Source: Pseudofrankia inefficax (GTDB taxonomy: Bacteria; Actinomycetota; Actinomycetes; Frankiales; Frankiaceae). From it: a stretch of DNA of 64,000 bases. A program made the translations under genes and the position numbers. Below the pieces are notes generated by a model that worked only from the letters and a program-made list of their open reading frames with translations, was not told the origin of the DNA and did not search any database. The stretch is taken from contig NC_014666.1 of assembly GCF_000166135.1 (NCBI RefSeq), forward strand, positions 1 to 64,000. The letters are read 5' to 3'. This document shows, piece by piece, positions 19,548 to 38,313 of this stretch; positions within the stretch are counted from its first letter, which is position 1; each line of letters begins with the position of its first letter.

Positions 19548-19569
19548 AGCACGTCAACTCTGCTAGGAG

Positions 19570-20680: not shown

Positions 20681-20728
20681 TTGTGTTCTTGGCCCATTGA
20701 CGGCGACGCGCCGGGGAGCACGGCGCTC

Positions 20729-20759: not shown

Positions 20760-20878
20760 GCAACGTCCCTTGATCTCAAAACGAGCAATTCGGCAGCGCA
20801 TCATGGTTGCGCGGCACGCATGCCGATCATCTTGGACCCTGCCGACGAGGGCTTGCCCTCCATTGGCTGTGGCGAGCG

Positions 20879-21034: not shown

Positions 21035-21124
21035 GCGGACCTGTTCTGTTCCTCCCACCCCTTTGGGAGCCGGCGGGGGGTTCGGGGGGCGAAGCCCCCT
21101 GAGGTCTTCCCGACGGAGCGCCTC

Positions 21125-21799: not shown

Positions 21800-21934
21800 T
21801 CGGCGTGCCTCCCCGGGTGTGGCGTTCCGGGGTCCACGATGCCCGCCGCGACGGGCGTTGTCCTGGGACTTGGCGGGTTCGCGGAAGGTTGACGAGCGGT
21901 CATGATCCGCTTGGCCGGCGCGGGCCGGCGCCAG

Positions 21935-23302: not shown

Positions 23303-23499
23303 GTGCGCGGCCTTCCGTGGGAGCGCTTTATCCCTGACATGCCGGTCGTGGCGCTATGCGGGAGTGTAGCCACCCTTCGTATACGCCCATAGCCCTTCCA
23401 ACACGATCTGGTCGCGGAAAGGCTTCGGCCAACCCCGCCGCGGCGGCGCTCGTCGCGGCGGGGCCGGAAATGGCCTGTGAGCAGAACGGAGAGTGTCAG

Positions 23500-24006: not shown

Positions 24007-24027
24007 TAACCACATCGGACAGCAGAC

Positions 24028-24067
24028 GGGCCGGACTTCGCGGGCGACTAACCCGCGGGTCCGGCCC
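24028..24067. terminator. Bidirectional hairpin terminator
   Basis: GGGCCGGAC (24028-24036) pairs with GTCCGGCCC (24059-24067), enclosing a second stem CGCGGG/CCCGCG. It lies between the convergent genes at 24006 and 24094, so it can serve both. Confidence 0.75.
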
Positions 24068-24093
24068 TCCGTCGTTCCCGGACCCGGGCCGGG

Positions 24094-24483
24094 TCAGGGC
24101 TCGGTGAAGTGCTTCGAGATCTCCCTGAGGTGCCGCTCGATACGCAGCGTTGAGTCAAAGATCATCTTCACGTAGTCGGACGTCTTGGGATCGGCTTCGG
24201 GCGGCTCGGCGAGCAGGACACGCAGGAGATGGTCATCGCGCCATCCGAGCGCGCGGGAGATCGCGGTCAGCGTCGAGTTCTGGACCCGGCGATCGGTCGA
24301 CCCGCGCTGGAGCGCGCGAACGGTCGAAGCGGAGACCCGGGCGGCGTCCGCCAGCGCCTGCTGACCGATGCGACACGTGGCCATCCGTCGGTTGAGCGTG
24401 CGCGCGACCGCTTCCCAGTCCTCCCCCTCGACCGGCCCGCGGGCGGTGTGTGGACTGATCGGTACGTCGTTTGTCATCCCCAT
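24094..24483 (-). CDS. Small HTH (XRE-type) regulator
   Basis: The 129-residue product has a helix-turn-helix at about residues 36-80 (CRIGQQALADAARVSASTVR, ALQRGSTDRRVQNSTLTAIS) followed by a helical C-terminal tail of the type seen in dimeric repressors. It is transcribed divergently from pra, the replication activator of the element, with 170 bases of relatively AT-rich DNA between them. In pSAM2 a repressor (KorSA) controls pra; KorSA is a GntR protein, so this would be a functional analogue and not a homologue. That regulatory role is inference from position. Confidence 0.8.
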   Translation of the reverse strand: MGMTNDVPISPHTARGPVEGEDWEAVARTLNRRMATCRIGQQALADAARVSASTVRALQRGSTDRRVQNSTLTAISRALGWRDDHLLRVLLAEPPEADPKTSDYVKMIFDSTLRIERHLREISKHFTEP

Positions 24484-24653
24484 AGACCAAAGTGAACCCG
24501 CCTTTTAGCGTGCAAGCAAACAACATCGCTATTTATACGGTCACGTCATACACAGGCGCATAGTAGGTTGGCGAGAGGTTCATGGAGGGCGCATCGTTAG
24601 CACACACCCCAAACGCCCGGATGGTCCGGGTACGGGTACAGGAGGTGTGCACG
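24484..24653. promoter_or_regulatory. Divergent control region between HTH regulator and pra
   Basis: This is an unusually AT-rich stretch for the window (ACAACATCGCTATTTATACG and nearby). It must hold the promoters of both divergent genes. I cannot assign exact -35/-10 pairs. Confidence 0.5.
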
Positions 24654-25067
24654 GTGGCGATTCCTCGTCGTATTCCTATCGCGTTCGCGGATGCGTTCCC
24701 GAACGGTGCCTACGTGCTCGGTGTTGAGCAGTCCAACGACTTCGAGAAGTCCCGGCCCGGGTCGCCCCCGGTCCAGGAGCGCGACCGTGACTCGAACCTC
24801 CCCATGTGGGTCGTGCGGATCATGGACGCGGACCCGACAGCGCGGACCGCGGAACTGAAGGTGAAGATCGCGGCCGAGACAGCGCCGGTCATGCCGGACC
24901 CGATCCCGGGCACGCCGTTCCGGCCGGTCGAGCTGGTGGACGTGCTGGTGATTCCGTGGGTGGACTCGAACGGGTCGCGGCCGAAGCAGATGTTCGCGCT
25001 GCGGGCCTCGGGCCTGCGTCCGGCGCCGCCTGCTGCGGGTCGGCGGAATTCGGGGGCCGCGGCGTGA
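24654..25067 (+). CDS. pra: Pra-like replication, integration and excision activator
   Basis: In pSAM2, Pra switches on rep, xis and int expression, moving the element from the integrated to the replicating state. The GTG at 24654 follows AGGAGGTG, and the 137-residue product matches the family along its length: AIPRRIPIAFADAFPNGAYV at the start, LPMWVVRIMDADP, and PGTPFRPVELVDV in the middle. An in-frame ATG at 24582 is not supported. It is probably the first gene of an operon pra-(25064)-traB-rep-xis, all on the plus strand with overlaps or short gaps. Confidence 0.88.
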   Translation: MAIPRRIPIAFADAFPNGAYVLGVEQSNDFEKSRPGSPPVQERDRDSNLPMWVVRIMDADPTARTAELKVKIAAETAPVMPDPIPGTPFRPVELVDVLVIPWVDSNGSRPKQMFALRASGLRPAPPAAGRRNSGAAA

Positions 25068-25411
25068 GCGGCCGTGCGGTCAAGTCGCGTACCCGGCTGT
25101 CGTCGCACCTGTCGGTGTGTGGCGGGGCGTCGGTTCACCTCAACGTCTACCCGGAGCGGTCCCCGATCCTGACCCTGACCACGGGGGATGTGTCGGTGAC
25201 GATCGCGATGTCGACCACTGACCTGGACGGGACGGCGATGCAGTTCGTCCGTGAGCTCGCGGACGCGGCGGCCCGGTTCGCCGAGGACTGCGCCCGATTC
25301 GCCCTCAACGCCGACCCTGACGCCGGCCCGGCGGCGGGACCGGTCAATCCGCCGACCGGACTGGCCTCGCCCCCGTCGGTGGGTCGTTCTCGGGGTTCAC
25401 GCGCCGCTTAG
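25064..25411 (+). CDS. Small AICE protein of unknown function
   Basis: The GTG at 25064 overlaps the pra stop codon (GTGA), indicating translational coupling. The 115-residue product has a compact strand-rich core (HLSVCGGASVHLNVYPERSP, ILTLTTGDVSVTIAMSTTD), then an amphipathic helix (QFVRELADAAARFAEDCARF) and a Pro-rich tail. I recognise no domain. Genes in this position, between pra and the translocase, are common in AICEs but uncharacterised. Confidence 0.7.
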   Translation: MSGRAVKSRTRLSSHLSVCGGASVHLNVYPERSPILTLTTGDVSVTIAMSTTDLDGTAMQFVRELADAAARFAEDCARFALNADPDAGPAAGPVNPPTGLASPPSVGRSRGSRAA

Positions 25412-25544
25412 GCACGTTTCTTATGGGCGTCCCGGGGCCGCCGGCCTGACATAGGCGTTGGCCGTCCCGGGACCTGCCCCGGCTTTTCTTCTCTTCATTT
25501 CTTGGCCCTGGCTTTGCCCTGCCGTGAAACGGGTGGTATTTGTC

Positions 25545-27242
25545 ATGCGCAGAATCAACGGGGATCGTCGTTTCCCGTCGCTGCCCGCACGTCACGACAA
25601 GATCCGCATTCCCCTGTGGTGGGTCGTCGTCGGCATGCTCGGCCGCCTCGCCGGCCGCTGCCTCCTTGTCGTGCTGCGGCATCCGGTCGCGGTCGGCGCG
25701 CTCGTCATCCTGACGGCGTTCTACCGCCAGACCGGCCTGCTCGGACTGGGCGCGCTCGCCGCCTTCGTCGTGCTCGTCTCGGGAGCCTGGCGGTTGGCGC
25801 ATCGGGCGTCGTTTGACCGGGCGGCCTGGTGGACCTGGGGCCGGCTGCGGCTCGTGGCTGTGTATCGGCGGAAGTGGCGGCCGGCGACGTTACATTGCGG
25901 CCTGGCGATCCAGATCCCCGCGTCCAACGCCGAGACCGTGTCCTTCGACGAGTATTTCCCCCGTATCCGCGGCTTCCGTGCCTCGGTCGCGGTCGAATCG
26001 CTGCGCGTCGAGCTGCTGCCTGGCCAGACCCCGGAGCAGTGGGCGGAGCAGGCCGAGGCGCTGCGGCATGTCTACCGGGCGCGGGCGTGCCGGGTCCGCT
26101 GCGACCAGGTGGGGTTCATCTGGCTGGACTTTTACCGCCGTGACCCGCTCGACCGGCCCGTTCCCCCGGCCGATGTCGACGGACCCGATGGACCTGACGG
26201 TCTCGACCATCTTCCGATCGGCCGGCGTGAAGACGGCGGCCCTTGGCTGCTACCGCTGCGTGGATCTCACGTCCTGGTGGCCGGCGCGACGGGGTCGGGC
26301 AAGGGGTCGGTGCTGTGGTCGCTGATCCGCGCACTCGGCCCCGCCGTCGCCGCCGGGCTCGTCGAGCTGTGGGTGTGCGATCCCAAGGGCGGCATGGAGA
26401 TGGCCGCGGGCGCACGGTTGTTTGCTCGGTTCGCCTACGACCTGCCCTCCATCGCCGACCTCCTCGACGACGCGGTAGCCCGGATGCAGTCCCGCGCGGA
26501 CGGACTACGCGGCGTCGCCCGGCTGCACACACCGACGGTCGGTGACCCGCTGATCGTGGTCCTGGTCGACGAGATCGCCGCCCTGACGGCCTATGTGACG
26601 GACCGCGATCTCAAGCGACGACTCTCCGCGTCCCTCGGGCTGCTCCTGTCCCAAGGACGGGCGCCGGGTGTCGTCGTCGTGGCCGCGGTCCAGGACCCGC
26701 GCAAGGAGACGTTGCCGTTCCGCGACCTGTTCCCGGTCCGGGTCGCGCTGCGCCTGGTGGAAGCCGAGCAGGTCGACCTCGTCCTCGGGGCCGGTGCGCA
26801 CGACAAGGGTGCCCGCTGCCAGGACATCCCGCCGAACCTGCAAGGGACCGGCTACGTCGCCGAAGACGGCGGCGGCGACCCCGTCCGCGTCCGCGCGTCC
26901 TGGCCGGACGATGCGGAGATTCGCCGGACCATCGACCGGTACAGCGCTCCGGCGGCCGGCGCGCTGGCGGTGCTGCGGCCGGTCCCACCACGCCTGGAAC
27001 TGCCCGGACCCACGATCGCACCGGAGATCGCTGACATCCTGCGCGCCCGTGGGATGGGGCATCTCCTGGGCCTCGACGGACCGGCCCGGCGTCGGCGGGT
27101 GGCCTGGCCCTGGCGCAAGGCAGAAGTGCCGCGATCCCGTCCGGGCTGGCCGGCGGCGGGCTGGGTACCCGACACCGATCGACCGGTCGACGGCTGGGTG
27201 CCGGATCTCGCCGAGTACGGCGATCCCTGGGCCGAGAAGTGA
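25545..27242 (+). CDS. traB: TraB/TraSA-like FtsK-domain DNA translocase
   Basis: TraB-type proteins form a membrane-bound hexameric pump that moves double-stranded plasmid DNA between mycelia, so one protein suffices for transfer. I start at ATG 25545, preceded by GGTGG; a frame to 25458 is less likely. Of 565 residues, the N-terminal region has two to three membrane segments (WWVVVGMLGRLAGRCLLVVL, VGALVILTAFY, LLGLGALAAFVVLVSG). The FtsK domain follows, with Walker A AGATGSGKGS (about 247-255) and Walker B LIVVLVDEIAA (about 336-346). The stop overlaps the rep GTG. Confidence 0.9.
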   Translation: MRRINGDRRFPSLPARHDKIRIPLWWVVVGMLGRLAGRCLLVVLRHPVAVGALVILTAFYRQTGLLGLGALAAFVVLVSGAWRLAHRASFDRAAWWTWGRLRLVAVYRRKWRPATLHCGLAIQIPASNAETVSFDEYFPRIRGFRASVAVESLRVELLPGQTPEQWAEQAEALRHVYRARACRVRCDQVGFIWLDFYRRDPLDRPVPPADVDGPDGPDGLDHLPIGRREDGGPWLLPLRGSHVLVAGATGSGKGSVLWSLIRALGPAVAAGLVELWVCDPKGGMEMAAGARLFARFAYDLPSIADLLDDAVARMQSRADGLRGVARLHTPTVGDPLIVVLVDEIAALTAYVTDRDLKRRLSASLGLLLSQGRAPGVVVVAAVQDPRKETLPFRDLFPVRVALRLVEAEQVDLVLGAGAHDKGARCQDIPPNLQGTGYVAEDGGGDPVRVRASWPDDAEIRRTIDRYSAPAAGALAVLRPVPPRLELPGPTIAPEIADILRARGMGHLLGLDGPARRRRVAWPWRKAEVPRSRPGWPAAGWVPDTDRPVDGWVPDLAEYGDPWAEK

Positions 27243-28996
27243 CCGGCGGGGGCCAGTGCGACGCCGACCGCGGATCCGCCGGCACGGGAGGTCTCAGGGA
27301 ACCGCGGCCTGGGTCGCGGGCGGCTCGGATGCGGATGCCGCTGGCGCGTCAGGTGGTGGAGGCGGTCGCGGTCGAGGAGGGCGTGTGCGTGCGGCCGGTC
27401 GCGTTGCGCCGCGTCGACCTCGACACCGGGGAAACCACCATCATCCCGGCCCCCTGTGGCGCGACGTTGGCCTCGAAGTGCCCGCCGTGCGCGGAGCGGG
27501 CGCGTCGGCTGCGGATGGCGCAATGTAAATCCGGCTGGCACCTCGACGACGAACCCCTGCCCCCGCCGGACCCGCCCGACGACGAAGCCAAGCAACTCGG
27601 CCGACTCCGCGCCGACCTCGAAGCGATCCGCACCGAAGCCGAAAAGACCGGCGACACGGCCGGCGTCGCTGATGCCGACGAGATGATCGGCCAAGTCGAC
27701 GAACACCTCGCCGACCTCGGCGTCCGCGGCAAGGCAGCGCCGGACGATCGGGAGCGACCCCGGCGAACGCGGTCGACTCGGCGGCGGCAGGACGCTCCGG
27801 ATCTGCCCCGGCTGCCCGTCGTGAAGCGCACCATCGGCCGGACCTACAACGCACCGGACGGCACCACCTGGCGGCCGTCGATGTTCCTCACGCTGACCTG
27901 TGACACCTACGGCCGCGTGTTCCCGGATGGCACGCCCGTGGACCCGGACACCTACGACTACCGGCGGGCCGCGCGGGACGCGATCCACTTCCCGAAGCTG
28001 GTCGACCGGTTCTGGCAGAACCTGCGCCGCGCGGTCGGCTGGGAGGTGCAGTACTTCGCGGCACTCGAACCACAGCGACGCCTCGCCCCGCATCTGCATG
28101 CGGCGTTCCGCGGAACGGTCCCGCGCGTCGTCCTGCGCCAGGTCGCGGCCGCGACCTACCACCAAGTCTGGTGGCCACCCACCGACCGACCCATCTACCC
28201 GGCCGCCGGACCGGACCTGCCCGTCTGGGACGAGCAGACCGGCGGCTACCTCGACCCGGCGACCGGCGCGGAGTTGGTCTCCTGGGACCAGGCGCTCGAC
28301 GCGATCGGACCCGATGACGAACCGGCACACGTCGTGCGGTTTGGGCCGCAGATCCGCGCGGACGGTGTCACCTCGAACAGCGACACCGCCGGGAAGCTCA
28401 TCGGCTACCTGACCAAGTACCTCACGAAGTCACTCGATGGCTGTCACGCCATCGCGACCGACCGGCAACGTGCCCACGTCGACCGGCTGGCCGCGACGCT
28501 GCGGCACGAACCGTGCTCGCCGAGCTGCGCGAACTGGCTTCTACACGGCATCGCCCCGAAGAACGCCCGGCCCGGCCTCGTACCCGGCCGGTGCAAGGGG
28601 AAAGCCCATCGACGCGAAACGCTCGGGTTCGGCGGCCGGCGCGTCCTTGTCTCCCGGAAGTGGTCCGGCAAGACCCTCGGCGACCACAAAGCCGACCGCG
28701 TCGACTTCGTCCGCGAACAGTTGCAAGCGCTCGGCAAGCACGCCGACCCGAACAGCCCAGCAGCGCGAGCGACCGACGAGACCCGGGCTGCGCCGCGCGT
28801 CGCCTGGGAACTGGTCCGCCCCGGCGACCCGGACGCCCCACGGCGCGAGCACCTGATCCTGCACGCCGTCGCCGAACGGCAACGCTGGCGCACCCAACTC
28901 GCCGACCCCACGGCCACCGGACCGCCACTCGACAGCCCGGCCGACCGCGACAAATCCTCCGATCCGCTGCCCGCTCCTACCGAGGAGGGACCGTGA
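27239..28996 (+). CDS. repSA: RepSA-like HUH replication initiator
   Basis: RepSA-type proteins nick the element's double-strand origin and start rolling-circle replication. The 585-residue frame opens at GTG 27239, overlapping traB by four bases; ATG 27328 (MRMPLARQVVEAV) is an alternative start. Features: a Cys-rich segment ATLASKCPPCAERARRLRMA, an HUH-type HxH in LAPHLHAAF (about 283-291), and a catalytic-Tyr region GYLTKYLTK (about 389-397). The C-terminal third is Arg-rich. The double-strand origin of related elements lies within or near rep; I cannot pinpoint it. xis overlaps its stop codon. Confidence 0.88.
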   Translation: MTGGGQCDADRGSAGTGGLREPRPGSRAARMRMPLARQVVEAVAVEEGVCVRPVALRRVDLDTGETTIIPAPCGATLASKCPPCAERARRLRMAQCKSGWHLDDEPLPPPDPPDDEAKQLGRLRADLEAIRTEAEKTGDTAGVADADEMIGQVDEHLADLGVRGKAAPDDRERPRRTRSTRRRQDAPDLPRLPVVKRTIGRTYNAPDGTTWRPSMFLTLTCDTYGRVFPDGTPVDPDTYDYRRAARDAIHFPKLVDRFWQNLRRAVGWEVQYFAALEPQRRLAPHLHAAFRGTVPRVVLRQVAAATYHQVWWPPTDRPIYPAAGPDLPVWDEQTGGYLDPATGAELVSWDQALDAIGPDDEPAHVVRFGPQIRADGVTSNSDTAGKLIGYLTKYLTKSLDGCHAIATDRQRAHVDRLAATLRHEPCSPSCANWLLHGIAPKNARPGLVPGRCKGKAHRRETLGFGGRRVLVSRKWSGKTLGDHKADRVDFVREQLQALGKHADPNSPAARATDETRAAPRVAWELVRPGDPDAPRREHLILHAVAERQRWRTQLADPTATGPPLDSPADRDKSSDPLPAPTEEGP

Positions 28997-29184
28997 CCAA
29001 GCTCCTTCTGACCCCGGCAGAAGCAGCCGACCAACTCGGCATCGGCCGATCCACCGTCTACGAACTCATGGCCGCCGGCGAGCTGGAATCGCTCTGCATC
29101 GGACGGGCGCGACGCATCCCCTACGACGCACTGGCCGCCTACATCGACCGGCTACGCGGCCAGCAGAACGGAACGGCCGCATGA
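28993..29184 (+). CDS. xis: Excisionase-like MerR-type HTH protein (Xis)
   Basis: This 63-residue protein, LLLTPAEAADQLGIGRSTVY then ELMAAGELESLCIGRARRIP, is a classic excisionase/AlpA-type winged HTH (helix_turn_helix_17). Xis bends DNA at the att arms and directs the integrase toward excision. The GTG start overlaps the rep stop (GTGA) and has GGAGGGA upstream. It is separated from int by about 1.4 kb holding two small genes and a divergent HTH gene, unlike pSAM2 where xis abuts int. Confidence 0.87.
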   Translation: MTKLLLTPAEAADQLGIGRSTVYELMAAGELESLCIGRARRIPYDALAAYIDRLRGQQNGTAA

Positions 29185-29258
29185 AACCCACAGCGCTACA
29201 GCAGACGCGCGGGCCTCCTACCCCGGGATAGGGGCGGCGCCGGTCCATCGAACGCTGC

Positions 29259-29618
29259 CTAGGCCAGCGGGTCGTAGTCGCCGGCAAGCCACCGCAGGAA
29301 CCGGCGCGGACGGTCGACAGAGGTCTGAACCGTCGTCGACGACTTCCCACCGGACACCAGAAGCTGCTCGTACCGCTCCAGCGCCTGCTGGAGATCGTCA
29401 AGGGTCCATCGCTCGGCCTGATCCCTGGCTGGCCTGGGCGCCTTGCGGGCGGCGTTCCATCGCTCGACGTCCTCGGCGCTCCACACCTTCCCCATGCTCA
29501 GCACGGCCACGGGCTCGGGAAACGCGGAGTCGTCGCGAAGGATCTGATGGACCCGCGACGGGCTCACGTCCAGGAGCTGCGCGATCTCCGCGGCACCCAT
29601 GAGTTTGATCGTCGGCAT
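29259..29618 (-). CDS. HTH DNA-binding protein, divergent regulator
   Basis: The 119-residue product starts MPTIKLMGAAEIAQLLDVSP with the recognition region SRVHQILRDDSAFPEPV and SMGKVWSAEDVERWNAA, an AlpA/MerR-like winged HTH. The C-terminal half is helical (DDLQQALERYEQLL), suggesting a dimerisation segment. It is divergent from the gene at 29741. The intervening 120 bases contain a promoter whose -35/-10 spacer carries a 14-bp palindrome, so this protein is a good candidate for a self- and neighbour-repressing regulator. It is not the main xis, which is the upstream gene on the plus strand. Confidence 0.82.
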   Translation of the reverse strand: MPTIKLMGAAEIAQLLDVSPSRVHQILRDDSAFPEPVAVLSMGKVWSAEDVERWNAARKAPRPARDQAERWTLDDLQQALERYEQLLVSGGKSSTTVQTSVDRPRRFLRWLAGDYDPLA

Positions 29619-29632
29619 GGTCGGATCATAGC

Positions 29633-29661
29633 TTGACGAGCCAGTAGCTACTGGCTACTGT
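29633..29661 (+). promoter_or_regulatory. Promoter with palindromic operator
   Basis: TTGACG (29633-29638) and TACTGT (29656-29661) are spaced by exactly 17 bases. The spacer holds the perfect palindrome CCAGTAGCTACTGG (29641-29654), with a half-site echo GGCTACTGTAGCC just downstream. It would drive the small gene at 29741. A dimeric HTH protein is the expected ligand, most simply the divergent gene at 29259-29618. Confidence 0.72.
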
Positions 29662-29740
29662 AGCCGTTAGCGGCCCCGACGGGTGATGGCACACCCGCCG
29701 AGACCTAGGCCCAACCCTGATGGCACAGGAGCTGAGACCC

Positions 29741-30049
29741 ATGCATATCTTCTCGTCCGGCGACCCCGAACTCTGGCGGACCCCCGAAACCGGCCCAGCG
29801 CTCGTCCTGGTCACCCTCCTGCCTACGGGCGAGTGCGAGGTGACGATCCACCCCGGCGCCGACGTCGAAGACGTGACCGCGGCGCTCGCGGTCGTCCCGG
29901 CCGGTGCGGTGTTCGTCGAGCACTTCAACGACGTCGAAGCGGTCCTCCTCTTCCGGCGCAACCCCGCCGGACCGCCGGCTCCCGAGATCGTTCCGTGGGT
30001 ACCGGTGTCCCCGCTGGTCCCGACGGCGGCAGGCGTCTCCCGCCCGTAG
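29741..30049 (+). CDS. AICE small protein (paired-family member B)
   Basis: I start at ATG 29741 (MHIFSSGDPELW), behind AGGAG; a start at 29720 is also possible. The 102-residue product has GECEVTIHPGADVEDVTAAL followed by VPAGAVFVEHFNDVEAVLLF, which matches LPTGLAFVEAFGDVDLVLVY in the AICE protein at 23500. The shared block is short, strand-turn-strand in character. The C terminus is Pro-rich and variable. The two genes are about 6 kb apart in one element, which suggests duplication or a common partner. No known domain is evident. Confidence 0.7.
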   Translation: MHIFSSGDPELWRTPETGPALVLVTLLPTGECEVTIHPGADVEDVTAALAVVPAGAVFVEHFNDVEAVLLFRRNPAGPPAPEIVPWVPVSPLVPTAAGVSRP

Positions 30050-30107
30050 CGGCATCCCTGCCTGCACCACCCCCATTTTTCTTCCGTTCCTCTGGTGGCG
30101 TTCCAAG

Positions 30108-30198
30108 CCGTCGGGGAGTCGGACGTGTCCAGGGTCGACCGAAGGTCGATCGCGCAAGCGACGCGATAGCGCCCTGGACGCGGCCGGCTCCCCGACGG
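30108..30198. other. Nested 91-nt hairpin element
   Basis: Three nested stems align: outer CCGTCGGGGAGTCGG with CCGGCTCCCCGACGG (one mismatch), middle GTCCAGGG with CCCTGGAC, inner ATCGCG with CGCGAT around a seven-base loop. It lies in the 254-bp gap between the small gene at 29741 and the next one. Large imperfect hairpins are typical of single-strand origins of rolling-circle plasmids; a structured RNA is the alternative. I see nothing else in the gap. Confidence 0.65.
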
Positions 30199-30303
30199 AC
30201 CCTCACACGCCAGAGAAACGGAACCCCGAACCTGCGCCCGGCAGCGATAACCGCGCTCGGCGCTTCCCTCCCGTTCTCTTCCGGCAAGGAGCTTGGACCC
30301 GCC

Positions 30304-30567
30304 ATGCCCGAAAACACTCCGGACCCGTCCGCCAGCGACTCGGCGGACTACCACCCGACGCCGGTCGAGTTGGACAGGGCGCTCGCCGAGATGGCCCGCG
30401 TTTCGCTCCAAGGCCATTACGCATACGCCTGCGGCGCTCTGAGGTTCGTCGCGGAGGAACTCGTCACCGGCCGCGCAGACGAACACACCATTGCGGCGGC
30501 CCGTTACGCCCTCGCCCTGGCAGAGGTTGCACGCGGGGCCTCCGACCACCTGCCCGAGGTGGCCTGA
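30304..30567 (+). CDS. Small AICE protein of unknown function upstream of int
   Basis: This 87-residue, largely helical, acidic protein (MPENTPDPSASDSADYHPTP, then ELDRALAEMARVSLQGHYAY) ends LAEVARGASDHLPEVA. It has no membrane span and no recognisable domain. An AAGGAG-like sequence precedes the ATG and its stop overlaps the int start (TGATG), so it is probably translationally coupled to int. It may be a helper of integration or simply a linked gene; I cannot tell. Confidence 0.65.
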   Translation: MPENTPDPSASDSADYHPTPVELDRALAEMARVSLQGHYAYACGALRFVAEELVTGRADEHTIAAARYALALAEVARGASDHLPEVA

Positions 30568-31760
30568 TGGCCGAGCAGAAGAACGAACCGGACGGCGCGG
30601 CGTCGGCGGAAGAGAAGAAGTCTCGACGCGCGCACGGCGAGGGCGGCCTGTACCAGCGGGCGAGTGACAACCGCTGGGTCGGGGTCGTCGACCTCGGCTG
30701 GATCGACGGCAAACGACGCCGTCGGACTGTGTACGGCCGGACGCAGAAGGAAGCGCGCGGCAAGATGAACGCGCTGCGCGAGGCGGCCGGCAAGGGTCAA
30801 GATCTCGCCGCGAAGCCCCAGACGGTCGCGGAGTGGCTGTCGTACTGGCTCGACGAGATCAAAGGGCATGACGGAACGCGGCCGTCGACGCTGAGCCGCT
30901 ACCGATACGCGATCGACGGACACATCGTGCCTGTTCTCGGCAAGATCCGGCTGGACAAGCTGAGCCCGGCCGACGTCCGTAGGCTGCATGCGGCGCGCCG
31001 CGACTCGATGAAGCCAGCGAGCTTGGCCAAGATTCACGCCGTCCTGCGCGTAGCCCTCGCAGATGCGGAGCGCATGGACCTGGTGTCCCGCAACGTCGCG
31101 AAGTCGGTTCAACCGCCCAAGCTCGGCGACTCGGACCCGCGGGACCTGGCGGTCGAAGACGCGCGCCGATTCCTCGAAGTCGCGGCAGGCGATCGCCTCG
31201 AAGCGCTCTTCGTGGTCGCACTCACGATGGGCCTACGCCGCGGCGAGCTGCTCGGCCTGCGCTGGGATGACGTCGACCTCGACGCGGCAACCCTCCGCGT
31301 CGTCCGCTCGGCCCAGCGCGTGTCCGGCACGCTTCGGCTGGTCGACACGAAGACGAGAGGCTCACGGCGCCCGGTGCCGATCCCGGCAATGACGTTGGAA
31401 GCGCTCAAGCGGCACAGGAAGCGGCAGGACCAGGAGCGCGCCGACGCGGGCAAAGCCTGGAAAGAGAACGGCCTCGTCTTCGCGTCCACGGTCGGCACGC
31501 TGATAGAGCCGCGCAACGTCACGCGCCGAGTTCAGCAGCTCCGCGGACGGGTGAACCTGCCGACGCTCCGGCTCCACGACTTCCGCCACGCCTGCGCGAG
31601 CTTCCTCCTGGCGGCCGGCATCGAACCTCGGACCGTAATGGAGATCCTCGGTCACGCCACGATGCGCATGACCATGGAGCGCTACGGCCACGCCCTCCCC
31701 GAACGCCTGCGCGCCGCGTCCGACGCCATGGACAAGCTGATGGGCCAGCGTCTGCCGTGA
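30567..31760 (+). CDS. int: Site-specific tyrosine integrase
   Basis: The integrase joins the element's attP to the tRNA-Ala attB and, with Xis, excises it. The 397-residue product has an AP2-like arm-binding N terminus (GEGGLYQRASDNRWVGVVDL), a SAM-like core-binding domain (WLSYWLDEIKGHDGTRPSTL), and the catalytic domain with Arg in MGLRRGELLGLRW (about 224), Lys in TKTRGSRR, HxxR in LHDFRHAC (about 337-340), His in LGHATMRMT and the nucleophile Tyr in MERYGH (about 372). The catalytic set appears intact. It lies 560 bases from attR, the normal place for an AICE integrase. Confidence 0.94.
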   Translation: MAEQKNEPDGAASAEEKKSRRAHGEGGLYQRASDNRWVGVVDLGWIDGKRRRRTVYGRTQKEARGKMNALREAAGKGQDLAAKPQTVAEWLSYWLDEIKGHDGTRPSTLSRYRYAIDGHIVPVLGKIRLDKLSPADVRRLHAARRDSMKPASLAKIHAVLRVALADAERMDLVSRNVAKSVQPPKLGDSDPRDLAVEDARRFLEVAAGDRLEALFVVALTMGLRRGELLGLRWDDVDLDAATLRVVRSAQRVSGTLRLVDTKTRGSRRPVPIPAMTLEALKRHRKRQDQERADAGKAWKENGLVFASTVGTLIEPRNVTRRVQQLRGRVNLPTLRLHDFRHACASFLLAAGIEPRTVMEILGHATMRMTMERYGHALPERLRAASDAMDKLMGQRLP

Positions 31761-31906
31761 TTACGGATCAACTTCGGGTGTATTTTAGTACCGTCCGCTG
31801 ATGCTGCGCCTTCCCCGGAGGCAGGGCTAGGTATGGGGTGTGAACCCTCGGGACCTGGGACTTAGGGAACCCCCAGCGGACGGATTTGGCGCCGGTCTGG
31901 TTCCGC

Positions 31907-32245
31907 ATGCGCCGGGGAGTGCGGGATCGGAGAACCGTGCCCAGGCACGCCTCGCGGAGTCACACGCTGTCCCTCGTTTTGGTACTCGCGGGACAAGTGA
32001 CCTGCCTCTTGGCGATCATCGTCGTCACCCTGATCGGAAGTTCGACGGCAGCCGCGACAATCGGCGGGACTTGGGCGACGACGTGCGGTGTCCTCACGAT
32101 CTTCTTTCGTACCCATGCGCCCAAGGGCGGAGACTCACGCCCCAGGGATCGGGAGCCGACCAGACGGGGTGGCTCGCGCCCGCGGGATGGGGCTGCGTCC
32201 CAGCAGCCTCGGCGTACCAGCCGGGGCAGCGACGGCGGGAGATGA
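31907..32245 (+). CDS. Possible small membrane protein near attR
   Basis: The 112-residue frame (ATG 31907; TTG 31886 also possible) has two hydrophobic stretches, LSLVLVLAGQVTCLLAIIVV and AAATIGGTWATTCGVLTIFF, followed by an Arg/Gly-rich tail. Small membrane (Spd-like) proteins occur in AICEs, where they help intramycelial spread, but I see no clear family match and no strong ribosome-binding site. Codon third positions are less GC-biased than in neighbours. I regard it as plausible, not certain. Confidence 0.45.
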   Translation: MRRGVRDRRTVPRHASRSHTLSLVLVLAGQVTCLLAIIVVTLIGSSTAAATIGGTWATTCGVLTIFFRTHAPKGGDSRPRDREPTRRGGSRPRDGAASQQPRRTSRGSDGGR

Positions 32246-32253
32246 CGGTGCTG

Positions 32254-32272
32254 GGCTACACGGTTGGCTACA
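32254..32272 (+). promoter_or_regulatory. Candidate right arm-type integrase sites
   Basis: GGCTACACG (32254) and GGCTACA (32266) repeat with a 12-base period, as at 18961-18982, about 50 bases inside the right core repeat. Confidence 0.6.
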
Positions 32273-32277
32273 TAACG

Positions 32278-32310
32278 ATCAAAGCGGGCATCACAGAAAG
32301 TGATACCCGC
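32278..32310 (-). terminator. tRNA-Ala terminator supplied by the AICE
   Basis: On the minus strand GCGGGTATCAC pairs with GTGATGCCCGC (one G-T wobble) around a five-base loop, then TTTGATCG. It lies immediately 3' of the tRNA-Ala on element DNA, so the element restores both the tRNA end and a terminator. Confidence 0.75.
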
Positions 32311-32320
32311 AGATCAGATG

Positions 32321-32366
32321 GGGTGGAGACGGGGAGACTCGAACTCCCAACCCCTGCCTTGCAAAG
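32321..32366 (-). repeat. attR: attR: 46-bp direct repeat within tRNA-Ala
   Basis: This segment is identical to 18810-18855. It covers the tRNA-Ala from the anticodon loop to three bases past the discriminator. The crossover lies somewhere within it. Confidence 0.93.
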
Positions 32367-32396
32367 GCAGTGCTCTGCCAGTTGAGCTACGCCCCC
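32324..32396 (-). tRNA. tRNA-Ala (TGC anticodon)
   Basis: The minus-strand 73-nt cloverleaf has acceptor arm GGGGGCG/CGTCTCC with two G-T pairs, D arm GCTCAACTGGCAGAGC, anticodon arm CTGCC-TTTGCAA-GGCAG (anticodon TGC), T arm GGGAG-TTCGAGT-CTCCC, and discriminator A. CCA is not encoded. The 3' half comes from the integrated element. In many actinobacteria tRNA-Ala follows tRNA-Ile on the same strand; here it is on the opposite strand. Confidence 0.96.
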
Positions 32397-32579
32397 GTGG
32401 GTCGCGCCCGGCGTGACCGCTGGACGGGCGCTGCCGGGTGGGCGGCGCGCCTTCCAACTGTACGGCATCGTGGCGGCTGCGGCGGTGGCGTCTGGCTGGC
32501 GATCCTGCTGTCCAGGAGCCGGTCTGGGTCGCCGTCCCGGCGAGCTGATCTCCGCGGCGCGGGCGCGGGCGGCCCCACC

Positions 32580-32655
32580 ATGATTGCCAGTTCGGCCCTC
32601 TACCGGTTGCGGCGGGACTCCTATTGCAACCAGTCGAGGGCCGAAACGGCGATCA
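32580..32655 (+). repeat. Dispersed palindromic repeat, copy 2 (diverged)
   Basis: TGATTGCCAGTTCGGCCCTC on the left and GAGGGCCGAAACGGCGATCA on the right match the ends of the 81-bp repeats at 1789 and 62236, with a different centre. It sits in the 339-bp gap between tRNA-Ala and the frameshifted gene, which otherwise shows nothing I recognise. Confidence 0.7.
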
Positions 32656-32735
32656 CGTTTGACCGGGGCGGCTGCGGTCGGCCCAGGTCGGGTGTCGTTT
32701 CGCGGTCGGTCCGGCCAGCAGGGGGGAGCTGGGGG

Positions 32736-34095
32736 CTAGCAGCCGCCCATGCGCTTGAGCAGCGTCGCGATGGCGGGGAAGTTCGTCCAGCAGTCGGACT
32801 TGGAGCTGCTGGAGGCGGGCGCCGGGGGAGTTGGGGGCGGCCTGGCTGGTCGGGGCGGTCGGTGCCGCCGCCGCTGGCGGGGTCGGCTGCGGCTGGTGGC
32901 TGGCCGGTGCGTTGGCGCTGGAGCCGCGCGGGCGCGCGTCGGCGCGGCCGACCGACTGTGCCTGTACGGCGTTCAGGCCGGCCTGGGTAGGCGGCGGGGC
33001 GGTCGTCGGCGGCTCGATCACGGCGGGAAAGCTCCCGAAGTCGATCGTCGGAGCCTCGGTGTCGACGAACACGATCGCTTTGCCGGAGCCCGCGGGGGAG
33101 TTGCTGTTGGACAGCAGCAGTCCGGTCAGGCCGAAGAGCGTCAGCACGATGAGCACGATGGCCGCGGCGATCGTCATGCCGGACCGGGAGCGCAGGACGT
33201 ACCCGTGCCGGACGACGTGGATCCACTTCCGCGCGTCTCGCTGCGGGCGCGGCCCGGGGCGGCGGGACGCGGACCCTCCGTCAGCCGCGCCGATGGCGGC
33301 CGCCCGGTCGATCTCGTTGATCTCCGCGGAGTCGTCGATCGGGAGCCGGGGGCTCGGGTCCGGCAAGGCGCCGGGCGCCAGGCCGACCACCGTGGCTTCG
33401 GGGTCGTCCTCGCCTGCGGCTTCGGGATCGCCGCCGCTGTCGAGGTCGTTGGCGTCGAGGCCCGGCTGAGCAGAATCTGACGCGGCCACGGGCGCCTCGG
33501 GGGTCCCGACGGGCGTGTCCGCGGACCGGATCGTCTCGTCGCCGGACGCCGGCGCTTCGAGGTCGCCCGCCGCCAGGGTCTGCTCGCCGTCGCCGTCGCC
33601 GTCGCCGCCGGTGGCCGCGGGCACAGGCGGCTCGGCCACCGCCACGTCGGCGGGGCCGGACCCGGCTGGCCCCGGATCGGCGACCGCAGCGCCTGAGACC
33701 ACCCCTGGCGATGCCTCGGGCTCGGCCACCGCCGGCTTGCCTGCCTTCGTGAGCGAGAGGGCGGCGGGCGCAGGCTTGGTCACGTCAACCGAGGGCGCCT
33801 GGGGTGGCGCGGCAGGCTCGGACGCCGAGGCCGGGCCAACGGTCGGTGTGACCGTATTGTCCGGAATTGGCGAGTCGGTCGGCGTCGTGGTGGCGATGTG
33901 GTGAGTTCCCCGGTGGCTGTTGTCGAGGGTGCCGTCGGGTGCGGCCGGCGGGACCGCCGGCTGGCTGACCTCTTCCGCGCCCTCTGCCGGACCGGGCCGA
34001 AGTGTCTCGTCGGGGTCGACGGCGACGTAGGGGCGTGCCAGCCCGGACGCCGCGTCGGGGGTGTCTTCCCAGTCCCCGGCAGCGATTTCGCTCAT
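32736..34095 (-). CDS. Single-span membrane protein with Cys-terminated tail (apparent frameshift)
   Basis: I start at ATG 34095 (MSEIAAGDWEDTPDAASG). The protein has a long acidic, Pro/Ala/Asp-rich region (1-310), one membrane helix (MTIAAAIVLIVLTLFGLTGL), and a Pro/Ala-rich extracytoplasmic part. The frame that carries these features runs on to 32653, but from about 32830 its third-position GC collapses, while the +1 frame is fully GC-biased and ends SKSDCWTNFPAIATLLKRMG-GC at a TAG (32736-32738). That ending resembles the Cys-terminated end of the neighbouring protein at 34266. The shift falls in C-rich runs (about 32820-32850), so it is a real mutation or a homopolymer sequencing error. 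Function unknown. Confidence 0.6.
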
Positions 34096-34265
34096 CGTGA
34101 CCTGCCCCTGTCGCCTACTTCTCGCACCGGTCCGCGGGGACCACCGCGCCGCGGCGGGGCTGCGAACCACTGGCTTCCGAGGTCCCACGCTTCCACATAG
34201 CGGTAGAGGTCGCCTTGCGGGCGGGTCGACCGGGTGAAGGCCGACAACAGATCACCAATCCACCA

Positions 34266-34802
34266 TCAGCAGGGTAGCGGCAATCCGTGGCGCAGCAGGT
34301 ACTGGGCGATGGGCGAATTCCGGCAGGTGGTCGCCGCGGCAACCGCGTCGTCACGCCCGGCGCCGGTCGTGGCGGTCGGCTTCGGGCCGCCGAACAGTCT
34401 CCGAGTGGTTGGAGCCGCGCTCTGGCGGGTGGCCAGGGCCGCCGACGTGGTGGCCAGCGACGCCGACGCCGCGGCGGGCGTCGGGGCGGGGGTGGCCTCC
34501 TGGGCCGCGACTATCGACGCGGGCGTGGCCAGGCTGGTCTGCGGCTTCCCGGAGGCGACCGTCTGGGTCGTGTCCAGGGCCGGGTTGCGGGCGAACAGGA
34601 TGACCGCCACGACGATGATGACGCCGGTCAACGCGAAGCCGGCCAGTGCGGCCAGCGGGAACCGGCCGGCGGGCCTGGAGGCTGGCGCGTCCACGCGGTG
34701 GCGCCACGTGAACCGGTCCGTGACGTCCTCGGGTAAGCGATCGTGGCTGAGCGGCATCCTGATGGGCATCGCTGTGGCGTCCGCCTTTGCTGTCTCGGTC
34801 AC
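34266..34802 (-). CDS. Single-span membrane protein with Cys-terminated tail
   Basis: The 178-residue product (GTG 34802) has a short basic cytoplasmic N terminus, one membrane helix (LAALAGFALTGVIIVVAVIL), a Thr/Ala/Pro-rich linker, and a conserved-looking tail TTCRNSPIAQYLLRHGLPLP ending in Cys. The tail shares the pattern C-x4-P-x-I/A-x-x-LL-R/K-x-x-G with the downstream protein. It lies 37 bases after the ParA-like gene and 170 bases before the next gene, so the three probably form an operon. No family is recognised; the tail may be a conserved extracytoplasmic element. Confidence 0.7.
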   Translation of the reverse strand: MTETAKADATAMPIRMPLSHDRLPEDVTDRFTWRHRVDAPASRPAGRFPLAALAGFALTGVIIVVAVILFARNPALDTTQTVASGKPQTSLATPASIVAAQEATPAPTPAAASASLATTSAALATRQSAAPTTRRLFGGPKPTATTGAGRDDAVAAATTCRNSPIAQYLLRHGLPLPC

Positions 34803-34839
34803 CTGGGCGTCTGGAGGATCTGTCGGGGCTTGGGCCGCC

Positions 34840-35955
34840 TTACTGTCTCGTTCCGGCGGCGGAGACAGGCAGCCTGGGCAGGGTCGGGTCCAGGTAGCGC
34901 AGCCGCTCGCGGACGTTCACCGCCAGGTCGCGGAACTCCTGATAGCACTTGCGCACGTAGGTCTGCGCACTGCCCAGGGCGCCGTCGCCGGAGCGCAGCT
35001 CGAACATCGGCTTGCGGGCGTCCTGGGCGAGTGGCATGAGGGTCTGGTAGAAGGGCAGGCTCGCGATCTCGAACGACTTGTCGTACGGGTCGGCGCGCTG
35101 CGTGCCGAGCACCGACGTCGCGTAGACCTCGGGAATCCGGTCGAGCCAACGGTCGAAGGCCCGCGCGGGGCGGTCCCGGCCGGAAGCCGGCTGCATGATG
35201 ACGTAGCCGATCGGCATCATCAACGCGCGCGGCGCGGCGATCCGGTCGGGCACCTTCGGCAGCACCATGCCCTGCCAGGTGGACCGCCAGTCCCGCAACG
35301 TTGGACCGAGGTTGCGCAGGCCGCGCAGCGAGAACAGGTCGGCGCCCAGCGGCATGAGCACCGTGTCCGCGGACAGCAGGGCCGCGCGGTTGATCGCGCC
35401 AAGGTTCGGGCCGACGTCGATGAGCACGATCTCAGCCCGTACCGCCTTGCCGCTGTGGTCGACGACGCGGTGCAGCGCGGTCGTGGTCCGCAGCGCGGCG
35501 ACGTCCTTGCCCAGGAAGCTGTTCGGCCAGGCGGCCGACAGCTTGTCCTCGAAGACGCTCAGGTCGACGTCCCCGGGCAGCAGCCACAGGTTGTCGTCGA
35601 CCGAGACAGGCTCGAACAGCGAGACGTCCCCGACGCCTTCCATGATCGGAGCAATGGCGGTGGCGATCGTGCCGGTGCCCTCGACGATCCGGGACCGCCG
35701 GCCGCCGAGGATGTCGTGGCGCGGTGCCGAGGACGCGGTCGAGCCGCGGCCGCTGGTCGAGGCGCCGACGATCTGCTCCCGCCAGAGGGTCGCCAGGTCG
35801 TCCTCGTCGAGGAACTGGGCGGTGAGGTTCGCCTGCGGGTCGAGGTCGACGGCGAGGACCCGATGCCCCTGCCGGGCCAGCATGTGGGCGAGGTGGAAGG
35901 TGAGCGTGGTCTTGCCGACGCCGCCCTTGTTGTTGAACAGTGCCATCGTGATCAA
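34840..35955 (-). CDS. ParA-like ATPase
   Basis: ParA-type ATPases position DNA or protein cargo by ATP-dependent dimerisation on nucleoid or membrane. I start at TTG 35955 (GGGGGGG upstream), giving (M)LITMALFNNKGGVGKTTLTF with the deviant Walker A at residues 8-17; ATG 35946 is an alternative, and the frame to 36216 is unsupported. Other motifs are VLAVDLDPQANLT and IVLIDVGPNLGAI, followed by MPLGADLFSLRGL. At 371 residues it is longer than chromosomal Soj/ParA and has a C-terminal helical extension. No parB is adjacent; two Cys-tail membrane proteins follow. A role in partitioning or membrane positioning is inferred. Confidence 0.85.
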   Translation of the reverse strand: MITMALFNNKGGVGKTTLTFHLAHMLARQGHRVLAVDLDPQANLTAQFLDEDDLATLWREQIVGASTSGRGSTASSAPRHDILGGRRSRIVEGTGTIATAIAPIMEGVGDVSLFEPVSVDDNLWLLPGDVDLSVFEDKLSAAWPNSFLGKDVAALRTTTALHRVVDHSGKAVRAEIVLIDVGPNLGAINRAALLSADTVLMPLGADLFSLRGLRNLGPTLRDWRSTWQGMVLPKVPDRIAAPRALMMPIGYVIMQPASGRDRPARAFDRWLDRIPEVYATSVLGTQRADPYDKSFEIASLPFYQTLMPLAQDARKPMFELRSGDGALGSAQTYVRKCYQEFRDLAVNVRERLRYLDPTLPRLPVSAAGTRQ

Positions 35956-36171
35956 CAGTGGCCCCCCCGCGCCGCGCGGCAGGCTGGGGTCACGTCGGGG
36001 AGGTCGACAACGCGCGACCCGACGTCGCCCCGTCGCCCCTGGTCCCGAGGGCCAGGCAAACCGGTCATACCGGCATGGTGCGCACCCACCGGACCATTGT
36101 CTCCCTATGGCCGGCGACGAGCGCACCGCCACGGCACCAACGTCGTAACCGGGCCGGTGCCGGGCGTTCAG

Positions 36172-36193
36172 ACGCTGCCCAACTAGTGGGCAG
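36172..36193. promoter_or_regulatory. Inverted GCTGCCCA sites upstream of parA
   Basis: CTGCCCA-ACTAG-TGGGCAG (36175-36193) is an inverted pair of the motif that recurs at 36279 and four times at 36341-36403. It lies about 220 bases upstream of the ParA-like start, in the 487-bp noncoding gap 35956-36442. Confidence 0.6.
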
Positions 36194-36336
36194 TGAGGCC
36201 GGACGGATCCCATCAAGGCGCAGCGTGCGCGGCCGGGCTACCGCTTCGGCCCAGGTCTGACGATCACCAGGACCGCTGGTGGGCAGCGTTCCCTACCTAC
36301 GCTCGCCAGGCCGAGAGCGCGGCCGGCGCCGAGCCG

Positions 36337-36405
36337 TGACGCTGCCCATCAGGTGAGGCGCTGCCCATCACGCGACGTTGCCCATCAGGTGACGCTGCCC
36401 ATCGG
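36337..36405 (+). repeat. Iteron-like cluster of G(C/T)TGCCCATC
   Basis: Four copies begin at 36341, 36360, 36377 and 36394, spaced 19, 17 and 17 bases, each preceded by GAC/GGC and most followed by AGG or ACG. Regular spacing suggests a protein-binding array such as a centromere-like or operator site. Confidence 0.72.
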
Positions 36406-36442
36406 CGGACAGCGTGGGAGCCCGTCCCTGGTGGGGGCACCG

Positions 36443-37285
36443 TCATTCCCAGGAGCACAGGTCCGGCCAGCCGCTGGGGGCCGCCGGGCGGGGAAGGCGT
36501 CCGAGCAGCCAACGCAGCGTCTCGGCGGTGGAGGTCCGCACGACGGCCGGCCGCGGGCCGGCGCCGAACGCGCGCGACGACCGATCGCCCGGAGCGAGCA
36601 CGACGCTGACCCCGGGTGGCAACCGTTCCGGCAGCCGGGCGGTCGTCCAGTCCCATTCGGCGTCCACGTAGGGAGCGGGCAGGTCGGCCCAGCCGGGGCC
36701 GCCGCGGTCGGCGAGCCCGAGGTCCACACCGTGGATCTCGACCTCGCGCCAGCGCAGGAACACCAGGTCCGCCAGGGTCACCGGGCCGTCGAGGCGCGAG
36801 CCGGCCGCCGGCTCCAGCCGGCACATCCCAAGACCGGTGCGCCAGACCTCGACATGGGTCGCGTCCCAGGCGCGTTCCAGCCCGGCGATGGCGGCGGCCA
36901 GGTCGTCGCGGAGGCGCTCGGCGGAATCGGTGCCCGGGTGGGCGGTCGGGTCGTCCGCCGCCGGGTCGCTGCTGTTCAGCGCTATCGGGGCGGCACCGGC
37001 ACAGGCCGCCTGGACGAGGCTCGTGTGGCCGCGGGCACCGACGGTGAGATGGCGCAGGAGGTGCCCCACGGTCCAGCCCGGCAGCAGGGAGGGTCGGGCG
37101 ACGGTCGCGTCGTCCAGCGCCGCGGCGAGGGCGAGCAGTCGCCGATGCGATGCCGACACCCCGGCCAGCAGGTCGTGCGGAACCGGGGAGGGAAGGTAGC
37201 CGGCGCCGGCGGGCGTGGTGTGCGTCGCCCGTGCGGACGGAGGCAGGCCTGACTCCCGGACCCCGGCGCGCGTCTCGGTCGCCAT
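36443..37285 (-). CDS. Maleylpyruvate isomerase-family (mycothiol-dependent, DinB-like) protein
   Basis: The 280-residue product from ATG 37285 has the N-terminal MDMPI/DinB-like four-helix domain: DLLAGVSASHRRLLALAAAL, the metal-ligand-type LLPGWTVGHLLRHLTVGARG, and later VFLRWREVEIHGVDLGLADR with the second and third histidine/glutamate ligand region. Family members act on mycothiol-linked substrates or are uncharacterised. The substrate is unknown. Frames longer at the 5' end run into tandem-repeat DNA and are not supported. Confidence 0.82.
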   Translation of the reverse strand: MATETRAGVRESGLPPSARATHTTPAGAGYLPSPVPHDLLAGVSASHRRLLALAAALDDATVARPSLLPGWTVGHLLRHLTVGARGHTSLVQAACAGAAPIALNSSDPAADDPTAHPGTDSAERLRDDLAAAIAGLERAWDATHVEVWRTGLGMCRLEPAAGSRLDGPVTLADLVFLRWREVEIHGVDLGLADRGGPGWADLPAPYVDAEWDWTTARLPERLPPGVSVVLAPGDRSSRAFGAGPRPAVVRTSTAETLRWLLGRLPRPAAPSGWPDLCSWE

Positions 37286-37545
37286 CCGTCCACGATGCGC
37301 CACCGCGTGCCCGCCCGCCAGCCGACCACGCCGTGGGCACGCTGCCCATGGATGGTCTGGCCGGTGACCGGCCGCGAGAGACGGTGCCCACCCGTGGGTA
37401 GCGCAGTGACGATCGCAGCCAGTTAGAAGGGGCAGCGTCTCCGGAGCCCCGGGCCTGGAGTTCCCGGGGCCTGGAATGGAGGCCTGGGGCCGGACCTGGG
37501 CTGGAACCGGATTCGGGTCGGGCGCGGAGCTGGGCCGAGCCAGCA

Positions 37546-37587
37546 TCGCCTGTCGCCTGTCGCCTGTCGCCTGTCGCCTGTCGCCTG
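37546..37587. repeat. Tandem heptamer TCGCCTG x6
   Basis: Six perfect copies of TCGCCTG run head to tail. Such simple repeats can vary in copy number by slippage. Confidence 0.92.
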
Positions 37588-37649
37588 TCGGGAAGCGGAA
37601 GCGAGAAAGCGGTAGGCAGGAAGCGGGCCGAGCGTCGTGCACGGATGAC

Positions 37650-37673
37650 ACGGGTCCCACCCGTGGGACCCGT
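37650..37673. repeat. Perfect hairpin in repeat-rich region
   Basis: ACGGGTCCCAC and GTGGGACCCGT are perfect inverted copies around two bases. GTGGGACCCGT-like words recur at 37734-37745. Confidence 0.75.
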
Positions 37674-37748: not shown

Positions 37749-38313
37749 TTGAGGGGCAGCCGGCGTGTCGGTGGGACCCAGCCCACCGGTGGAAAGCGGT
37801 GAACGATCTAACGATGACCTTGTGGGGGTCAGCGGCTTCGGCGGCTCGGGGCCGTCCACGAGGGGTGGCGGCCCCCGTCGCGACGGGGACCACCGGGGGC
37901 ACGCGGCTGGGAGGTGCGAGTCGTCCGTATGCAGACGGTGACCATTCAGGGGCGGTGCTGCCCCCGGATGGTCCTGACCTCACCGCTCTGTCCGGCGGGC
38001 CGAGTGACCGAGCATCGACCGTAGGCTGACCACCATTGGGTCAGCGTTGCGCGGCTGACCCGCGTGGAGGGTCTCCGTCCGTGCACGGACGCTTCCCATC
38101 CGCGGGCGGCGGTTCGGTGGCCTACGCCATCGCATCAGTGTCGATGACCCCGCCTCGTGAGTGGATTCCCTAGCGGGCAGGCCGTCCTGGCTCTGATTCG
38201 GCTGGGAAATCGAACCTTTACGTCGGATCCCTTGTCCAGGGCACATGCCGCTGGCAGTCTGACTCGGCATCGGGGCATGACTTCTACGGATTGCCCTGGA
38301 TCTGTCACGAAAC

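Follow-up and report, generated by a model that had tools for sequence, protein, structure and literature searches.

How does a ParA-type ATPase work when no ParB gene stands next to it, and are the membrane proteins encoded directly behind it its partners? This question is raised by a locus of Pseudofrankia inefficax, a member of a genus of soil and plant-root bacteria. The genome consists of one contig of 8,815,781 bases, and the window, i.e. the whole stretch of DNA analysed here, covers its positions 1-64,000. On the minus strand, an MDMPI_N gene is followed by parA, by two genes for membrane proteins, here called gene 2 and gene 3, and then by tRNA-Ala (Table 1). As a tentative answer, which we rate as somewhat more probably wrong than right, we propose a lineage-specific, membrane-coupled orphan ParA system in which the gene 2 and gene 3 proteins would be the partners of the ATPase. 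Genomes, contigs and loci are denoted by our own numbers (G, C and L), G000 being the genome of the window.

The assignment as a ParA-like ATPase made in the initial annotation was borne out. The deviant Walker A motif with its signature lysine is intact (NNKGGVGKTT), the protein matches AAA_31 of Pfam (expectation value (E) 1e-27), and its structure was modelled as a ParA fold with a predicted local distance difference test score (pLDDT) of 87.8 and a predicted template modelling score (pTM) of 0.87. The nearest solved folds, as found by Foldseek, were 3pg5 (E 1e-14) and Soj 2bek (E 5.5e-12). Within the genus, the ratio of non-synonymous to synonymous substitution rates (dN/dS) of parA was 0.03-0.17, which indicates strong purifying selection. 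With motif and modelled fold intact, the protein is predicted to be a genuine member of the ParA family and to function as an ATPase. Its nearest solved chain by both sequence and fold is the uncharacterised DIP2308 of Corynebacterium diphtheriae (PDB 3pg5), to which it is 22% identical when the folds are aligned; no paper naming DIP2308 was found in the literature searched.

Also in agreement with the annotation, ParB is missing from the block: a domain scan detected no ParB domain in either downstream gene, and the upstream gene is of the MDMPI_N type. A canonical parAB pair is located at 8.80 Mb (ParB_N, E 2.2e-36), about 44 kb from the locus if the contig is circular. With what we take to be the parS consensus, three parS-like sites were found near this canonical pair and none with up to three mismatches near the orphan parA; one site lies at 44342. 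The protein thus resembles the ParA/Soj of chromosomal ParABS systems in its fold, its deviant Walker A motif and its origin-near location in this genome, but it exceeds the solved Soj chains in length by about 100 residues, and its locus lacks the adjacent ParB and the nearby canonical parS of a ParABS system. A plasmid or phage origin of parA is unsupported, since only 2 of 72,556 plasmid records matched (E<=1e-40, 34% identity) and none of 50,697 phage records matched at E<=1e-20. Known defence families were matched by the ParA in its Walker-A region alone, the best of these matches being PDC-M28B (E 1.1e-9).

The relatives of the protein point to another source. Close relatives are sporadic and were found in 5 of 396 actinobacterial genomes, its own included (E<=1e-40, up to five candidates scored per genome). 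In the GTDB genome collection a pattern scan confirmed at least 566 ParA relatives, the best 80 of which were analysed (17 from Frankiaceae, 63 from others). Among these, 61 of the 63 loci outside the Frankiaceae have a match to AlbA_2 on the same strand and at most 1.5 kb upstream, the two loci without it (L149 and L150) both being from Nocardiopsis; the two AlbA_2 proteins that were tested contained PF04326 and PF13749. Identities between the ParA and its relatives outside the Frankiaceae were 44-63% over the best segment. The locus shares its ParA subfamily with the SLFN_AlbA_2 + HATPase_c_4/ParA pairs but differs from them in having no AlbA_2 gene upstream: within 1.5 kb upstream of parA, none was present in the loci of Pseudofrankia, Frankia and Parafrankia. 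AlbA_2 is, however, present in three Frankiaceae loci that belong to a fourth genus (L056-L058), and the sole PF04326 match in the genome of P. inefficax is at 2.8 Mb. A tree was calculated for 83 ParAs from 94 loci, 11 being excluded since no full open reading frame (ORF) was found at the motif; it was built by a quick method with midpoint rooting, and its only branch support is the Shimodaira-Hasegawa-like approximate likelihood ratio test (SH-aLRT). The 22 orphan ParAs of the Frankiaceae formed one clade (SH-aLRT 100) amid AlbA_2-coupled ParAs, which we count in favour of the proposed system. At minimum, three changes of the neighbour state are needed on the tree, since outside the orphan clade AlbA_2 is also missing in L149 and in L060/L061, which are second copies in Parafrankia. 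Fixation of the ParA without the AlbA_2 partner before Frankia, Parafrankia and Pseudofrankia split may explain this pattern.

The AlbA_2-ParA pair itself is a second lead, since it is found across phyla and at times in operons resembling those of BREX (bacteriophage exclusion). Such a gene row surrounds the pair in six Micromonosporaceae loci (L112, L115, L116, L117, L122 and L123), with PglZ, BrxC/D and a DEAD helicase identified by Pfam in L112 and by sequence cluster in the other five. A link to BREX loci is described in PMC12839542 for RNases of the Schlafen family that have a minimal histidine kinase; the whole word ParA does not occur in the main text of that paper. Among the literature matches listed, neither this locus nor a Schlafen-ParA pair was described, subscription journals and most preprints lying outside the search. 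In a Nitrosomonadales genome (L161, 2237-8074), the AlbA_2-ParA pair is located between gyrA and a gene for a class-V aminotransferase.

The two genes downstream of parA, on the same strand, encode proteins with one hydrophobic segment each, just as annotated. The spans were called from hydropathy windows, not by a dedicated transmembrane (TM) predictor: windows of 19 residues with a mean hydropathy above 1.6 start at residues 45-61 in the gene 2 protein and at 300-314 in the gene 3 protein. In the former, the hydrophobic segment comprises approximately residues 45-79 of 178; in the model of the gene 3 protein of L035, the span helix covers residues 306-332 of 453. Neither protein is tail-anchored in the manner of a Get3-type client, since the span is not at the extreme C terminus. 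The gene 3 structure model is mostly disordered (mean pLDDT 42.5); what stands out is the span and, in the tail, a short helix of low confidence (436-449). A basic stretch read from the sequence precedes the span, which suggests an N-in, C-out topology; both Cys residues of a tail would then be outside and could form a bridge.

According to the initial annotation, both proteins end in a Cys motif. This is true of gene 2, the C terminus of which follows the pattern C-x3-P...L...G...C, but not of gene 3 as read in the window, whose open frame (34095-32653) ends without the motif. An alignment with two close relatives revealed one extra C in the homopolymer upstream of the tail, which puts the tail out of frame; the extra C may be an assembly or sequencing error or a real mutation. 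In the other loci of the genus the gene 3 tail is in frame wherever the 3' end is complete (6/6, L035-L040; the L040 gene includes a run of N at a more upstream position, and the contig of L041 stops 5' of the tail). For this reason, a programmed frameshift is disfavoured. Gene 2 with its tail was found in four of the eight genus loci (window, L035, L036 and L040). Conservation of the tail in orthologues had been set as a test beforehand, and it was found in all 11 aligned tails, which have C, P, L, G and the final C in common, although gene 2 of L041 (G007) stops before the tail and was excluded from the alignment. These common residues count for a role as partners, as does the comparison of L035 with L036, in which the gene 3 tail is identical in 18/18 residues and the remainder of the protein in 61-74%, depending on the region. 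Within sub-clades, the codons of the gene 3 tail show 3-4 synonymous vs 0-1 non-synonymous changes in five of six comparisons, and the sixth pair is identical.

A profile of 21 tail positions gave 11 matches (E 2e-12 to 1e-6) in 35 genomes of the family, with up to 150 candidates scored per genome. All of them are at this locus, and the best match elsewhere had an E of 0.0058, none being below 1e-5. In the 396 actinobacterial genomes (own included, up to 22 candidates scored per genome), the only other match with E<=0.005 was a partial one (model positions 9-19, E 0.0019). Since the 11 tails match the profile by construction, the evidence lies in the absence of others and in the agreement between the gene 2 and gene 3 tails. 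Profiles of the genes gave strong matches (E<1e-20) in seven of the 35 family genomes for gene 3 (up to 40 candidates scored per genome) and in four for gene 2 (up to 98), all Pseudofrankia. In addition, the start of gene 3 in L041 was found by reading, not by profile search. Weaker matches away from parA included a TM-region match of gene 3 in G034 (E 3.5e-5) and matches of gene 2 at G002:C33:62197 (E 0.008) and in G003:C376 (E 0.02). On plasmids, gene 3 had no match at E<=1e-4.

Several further observations argue for the gene 2 and gene 3 proteins as partners. Gene 3 directly follows parA or gene 2 in all seven genus loci that extend far enough (7/7), and in the eighth at least the start of the gene can be seen; where gene 2 is intact (four loci), it begins 19-73 nucleotides (nt) behind parA. 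All gene 2 copies (5/5, by eye) have an R-[FY]-[TA]-W-x-x-R motif close to the N terminus. In PMC10241942, ParA partners are described to contact ParA via a charged N-terminal stretch, and many ParA/MinD ATPases are called 'orphans' there, their partners being highly diverse and so far not identified. Since partners elsewhere use such a stretch and gene 2 has the motif, a membrane-anchored partner that interacts with ParA is plausible. The annotation had gone further and stated that no known ParA system has such partners, which was too broad: PMC9178275 lists TipN of Caulobacter, which is located at the pole and has two TM domains, with the proteins acting with ParA. TipN is similar in being a membrane protein that acts with a ParA, but it has two N-terminal spans and a coiled coil, and no Cys tail is mentioned in the passage on it, compared to one span and a Cys tail in the proteins studied here.

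A mechanism for such a system would start from an orphan ParA, belonging to a subfamily paired elsewhere with AlbA_2, that became fixed without this partner before Frankia, Parafrankia and Pseudofrankia diverged, and that was joined in Pseudofrankia by two one-span membrane proteins. ParA-ATP dimers would bind to nearby DNA, and the disordered cytoplasmic N-terminal parts of the membrane proteins would act as ParA partners that stimulate ATP hydrolysis and release, a role known from partners in other systems. In each extracytoplasmic tail, a Cys-Cys bridge would close a short helix, which may pair both proteins or dock on the envelope. In sum, the system would hold or position either a region of the chromosome or a membrane complex at the membrane. 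With its traceable Schlafen-linked origin, its missing old partner and its neighbouring lineage-specific membrane genes with an unusual tail, this orphan ParA offers a testable case of a positioning ATPase that switches partners.

A number of findings weigh against this proposal. The strongest is that parA is kept without gene 2 and gene 3 in two genera: behind parA, no Cys-tailed or strongly hydrophobic ORF was found in any of the 14 loci with downstream sequence (12 Frankia, 2 Parafrankia), with 2.0-7.9 kb inspected and all frames read for L044, L047, L053, L054 and L055. Of the co-occurrence with parA that the annotation had named as a test, it therefore holds that strong matches to gene 2 and gene 3 occur only beside this parA, but not that this parA comes with them. 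Adjacency alone is weak evidence because synteny extends over much of the parA block in any case. An MDMPI homologue is upstream of parA in 7/8 genus, 11/13 Frankia and 1/2 Parafrankia loci, and tRNA-Ala is behind parA in 10/13 Frankia loci and on the other side in two (L063 ends one base past the parA match). Furthermore, gene 2 is absent in three of the eight genus loci (L037-L039) and tail-less in L041, its tail codons show 3-4 non-synonymous vs 1-3 synonymous changes, and across sub-clades (three pairs) the gene 3 tails have only 7/18 (L035/L037) to 14/18 (L037/L040) residues in common. Both genes are weakly constrained, with a dN/dS of 0.27-0.64 for gene 2 and 0.40-0.65 for gene 3 (pairs between sub-clades and L040 excluded), and gene 3 is frameshifted in this window. 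Finally, the constant gap in front of gene 3 (Table 1) possibly reflects a promoter or leader of its own. No sigma-70-like promoter was detected at 32500-36500 by a scan that is poorly suited to this GC-rich genome, and the tRNA was the only known RNA element at the locus at E<=0.1.

Much of this would be expected if gene 2 and gene 3 encoded independent envelope proteins, co-located with parA by vertical inheritance, while ParA used an unlinked partner or a palindrome-binding protein, as has to be assumed for Frankia anyway. This explanation is favoured by the 14/14 Frankia and Parafrankia loci, by the constant gap and by the fact that the membrane genes are much less constrained than parA; it is opposed by the lack of a strong tail match elsewhere in the 35 family genomes and by the short distance from parA to gene 2. 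Since parA persists without gene 2 and gene 3 in two genera, we give this explanation and the proposed membrane-coupled system the same weight, which for each of them stays below an even chance.

An array of palindromes (consensus CGCTGMCCA-N4/5-TGGKCAGCG) is clustered upstream of parA. In the eight genomes of the genus, the exact sequence CTGCCCAN5TGGGCAG occurs once each in G000, G001 and G002, always at this locus, and once elsewhere in G005. A lone exact match is not unusual, because a reversed control pattern had similar counts (0, 2, 0 and 1 in G000, G001, G002 and G005); the unusual part is the position. The N4 form was found twice in G003, both at the locus (control 0), and in no other genome of the genus, the control occurring twice in G002. 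When up to three mismatches were allowed across the 64 kb, seven of nine sites were located 249-2165 nt before parA, in the two gaps that flank the MDMPI domain; of these seven, two are inside the longest ORF of the MDMPI gene, 5' of the domain. A covariance model was built from 16 sites of L037-L040 only, which were picked with the window-derived consensus, and its E-values are rough. At E<=0.5, its distinct matches were at the locus in 3/9 (G000), 3/8 (G001), 2/9 (G002), 1/5 (G012) and 1/7 (G029) cases; the best match in G000 was not at the locus (477331), and G016, G022, G025, G014, G017 and G009 had no match there. In G025, a Frankia genome, three matches to the model lie within 2.8 kb on another contig (G025:C266:28136-30947), possibly a second array. 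Six of the 12 Frankia loci with downstream sequence (L042, L043, L044, L045, L046 and L048) have 2-4 tandem sequences just behind parA, before tRNA-Ala, that agree with TTATCCACA or TTGTCCACA, which we take to be the DnaA-box consensus. Palindrome-model matches are located among these boxes in five of the six, with a spacing of about 45 bp where regular, and the boxes may represent a DnaA-titration site.

These sites could belong to a second, ParB-less locus for partition or replication control, with the palindromes as centromere-like or operator site of a binding protein, ParA as motor and the membrane proteins as accessory anchors. We consider this unlikely. It is true that a model trained on L037-L040 places matches of G000, G001 and G002 here and that DnaA boxes and palindromes coincide in Frankia, but the training sites were chosen with a consensus from the window itself, the top match in G000 is elsewhere, and six genomes have no match at the locus. 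Moreover, Pseudofrankia has the array upstream of parA but Frankia has it downstream, the Pseudofrankia loci have no DnaA boxes at this position, the genome already has a canonical parAB with parS-like sites, and operators of an ordinary regulator would explain the palindromes equally well. Quite unlikely, too, is a combination of both ideas, i.e. a ParB-less, origin-near positioning system in which an ex-Schlafen ParA would use a private palindrome array as DNA site and two membrane tethers with Cys-bracketed helices for pairing or docking; if true, chromosome origin and cell envelope would be physically linked. Very improbable is a decaying remnant of a Schlafen-ParA conflict module amid degenerating lineage genes, for although the AlbA_2 partner is missing, gene 3 of the window is frameshifted and gene 2 is absent in three genomes and tail-less in one, the low dN/dS of parA, the 22 orphan copies in the tree and the in-frame gene 3 tail of the relatives speak against decay.

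Table 1. Positions of the features of the orphan parA locus in the window
Feature	Position	Strand	Remarks
tRNA-Ala(TGC)	32322..32396	-	behind the block; adjoins an integrated element on the left
Gene 3	32653..34095	-	480 aa as read, without Cys tail; long acidic/Pro-rich N-terminal part, one span, Pro/Ala/Ser linker
Cys tail of gene 3, CWTNFPAIATLLKRMGGC + stop	32736..32792	-	frame differs from main ORF
C5 homopolymer (C4 in G002)	32824..32828	-	frameshift or sequencing error
Gap 5' of gene 3	34096..34265	-	169-170 nt in the four loci with intact gene 2
Gene 2, one-span membrane protein, C terminus CRNSPIAQYLLRHGLPLPC	34266..34802	-	178 aa
parA, ParA/MinD-family ATPase	34840..35955	-	368 aa from ATG 35946; TTG 35955 is the start position of relatives
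First palindrome, CACTGCCCA-CTAGT-TGGGCAGCG	36173..36195		about 250 nt before parA
17-bp direct repeat, 3.9 copies	36336..36403		with extra TGGGCAGCG half-sites
Second palindrome	36393..36414		array member
MDMPI_N/DinB_2-type gene	36443..37660	-	5' of parA; Pfam domain at residues 169-314
Third palindrome	37382..37403		in longest ORF of the MDMPI gene, 5' of its Pfam domain
Fourth palindrome	38024..38046		weaker, E 0.12 with held-out model

Beyond the tRNA-Ala, an actinobacterial integrative element lies at about 18700-32300 of the window. It encodes an FtsK/SpoIIIE protein (25458-27242) and RepSA (27239-28996), both identified by Pfam, and by eye also contains ORFs resembling an excisionase and an integrase. 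A gene for a TIR-type effector (19799-20680; PF10137, CAP12/Pycsar TIR, E 3.5e-36) is possibly part of this element.

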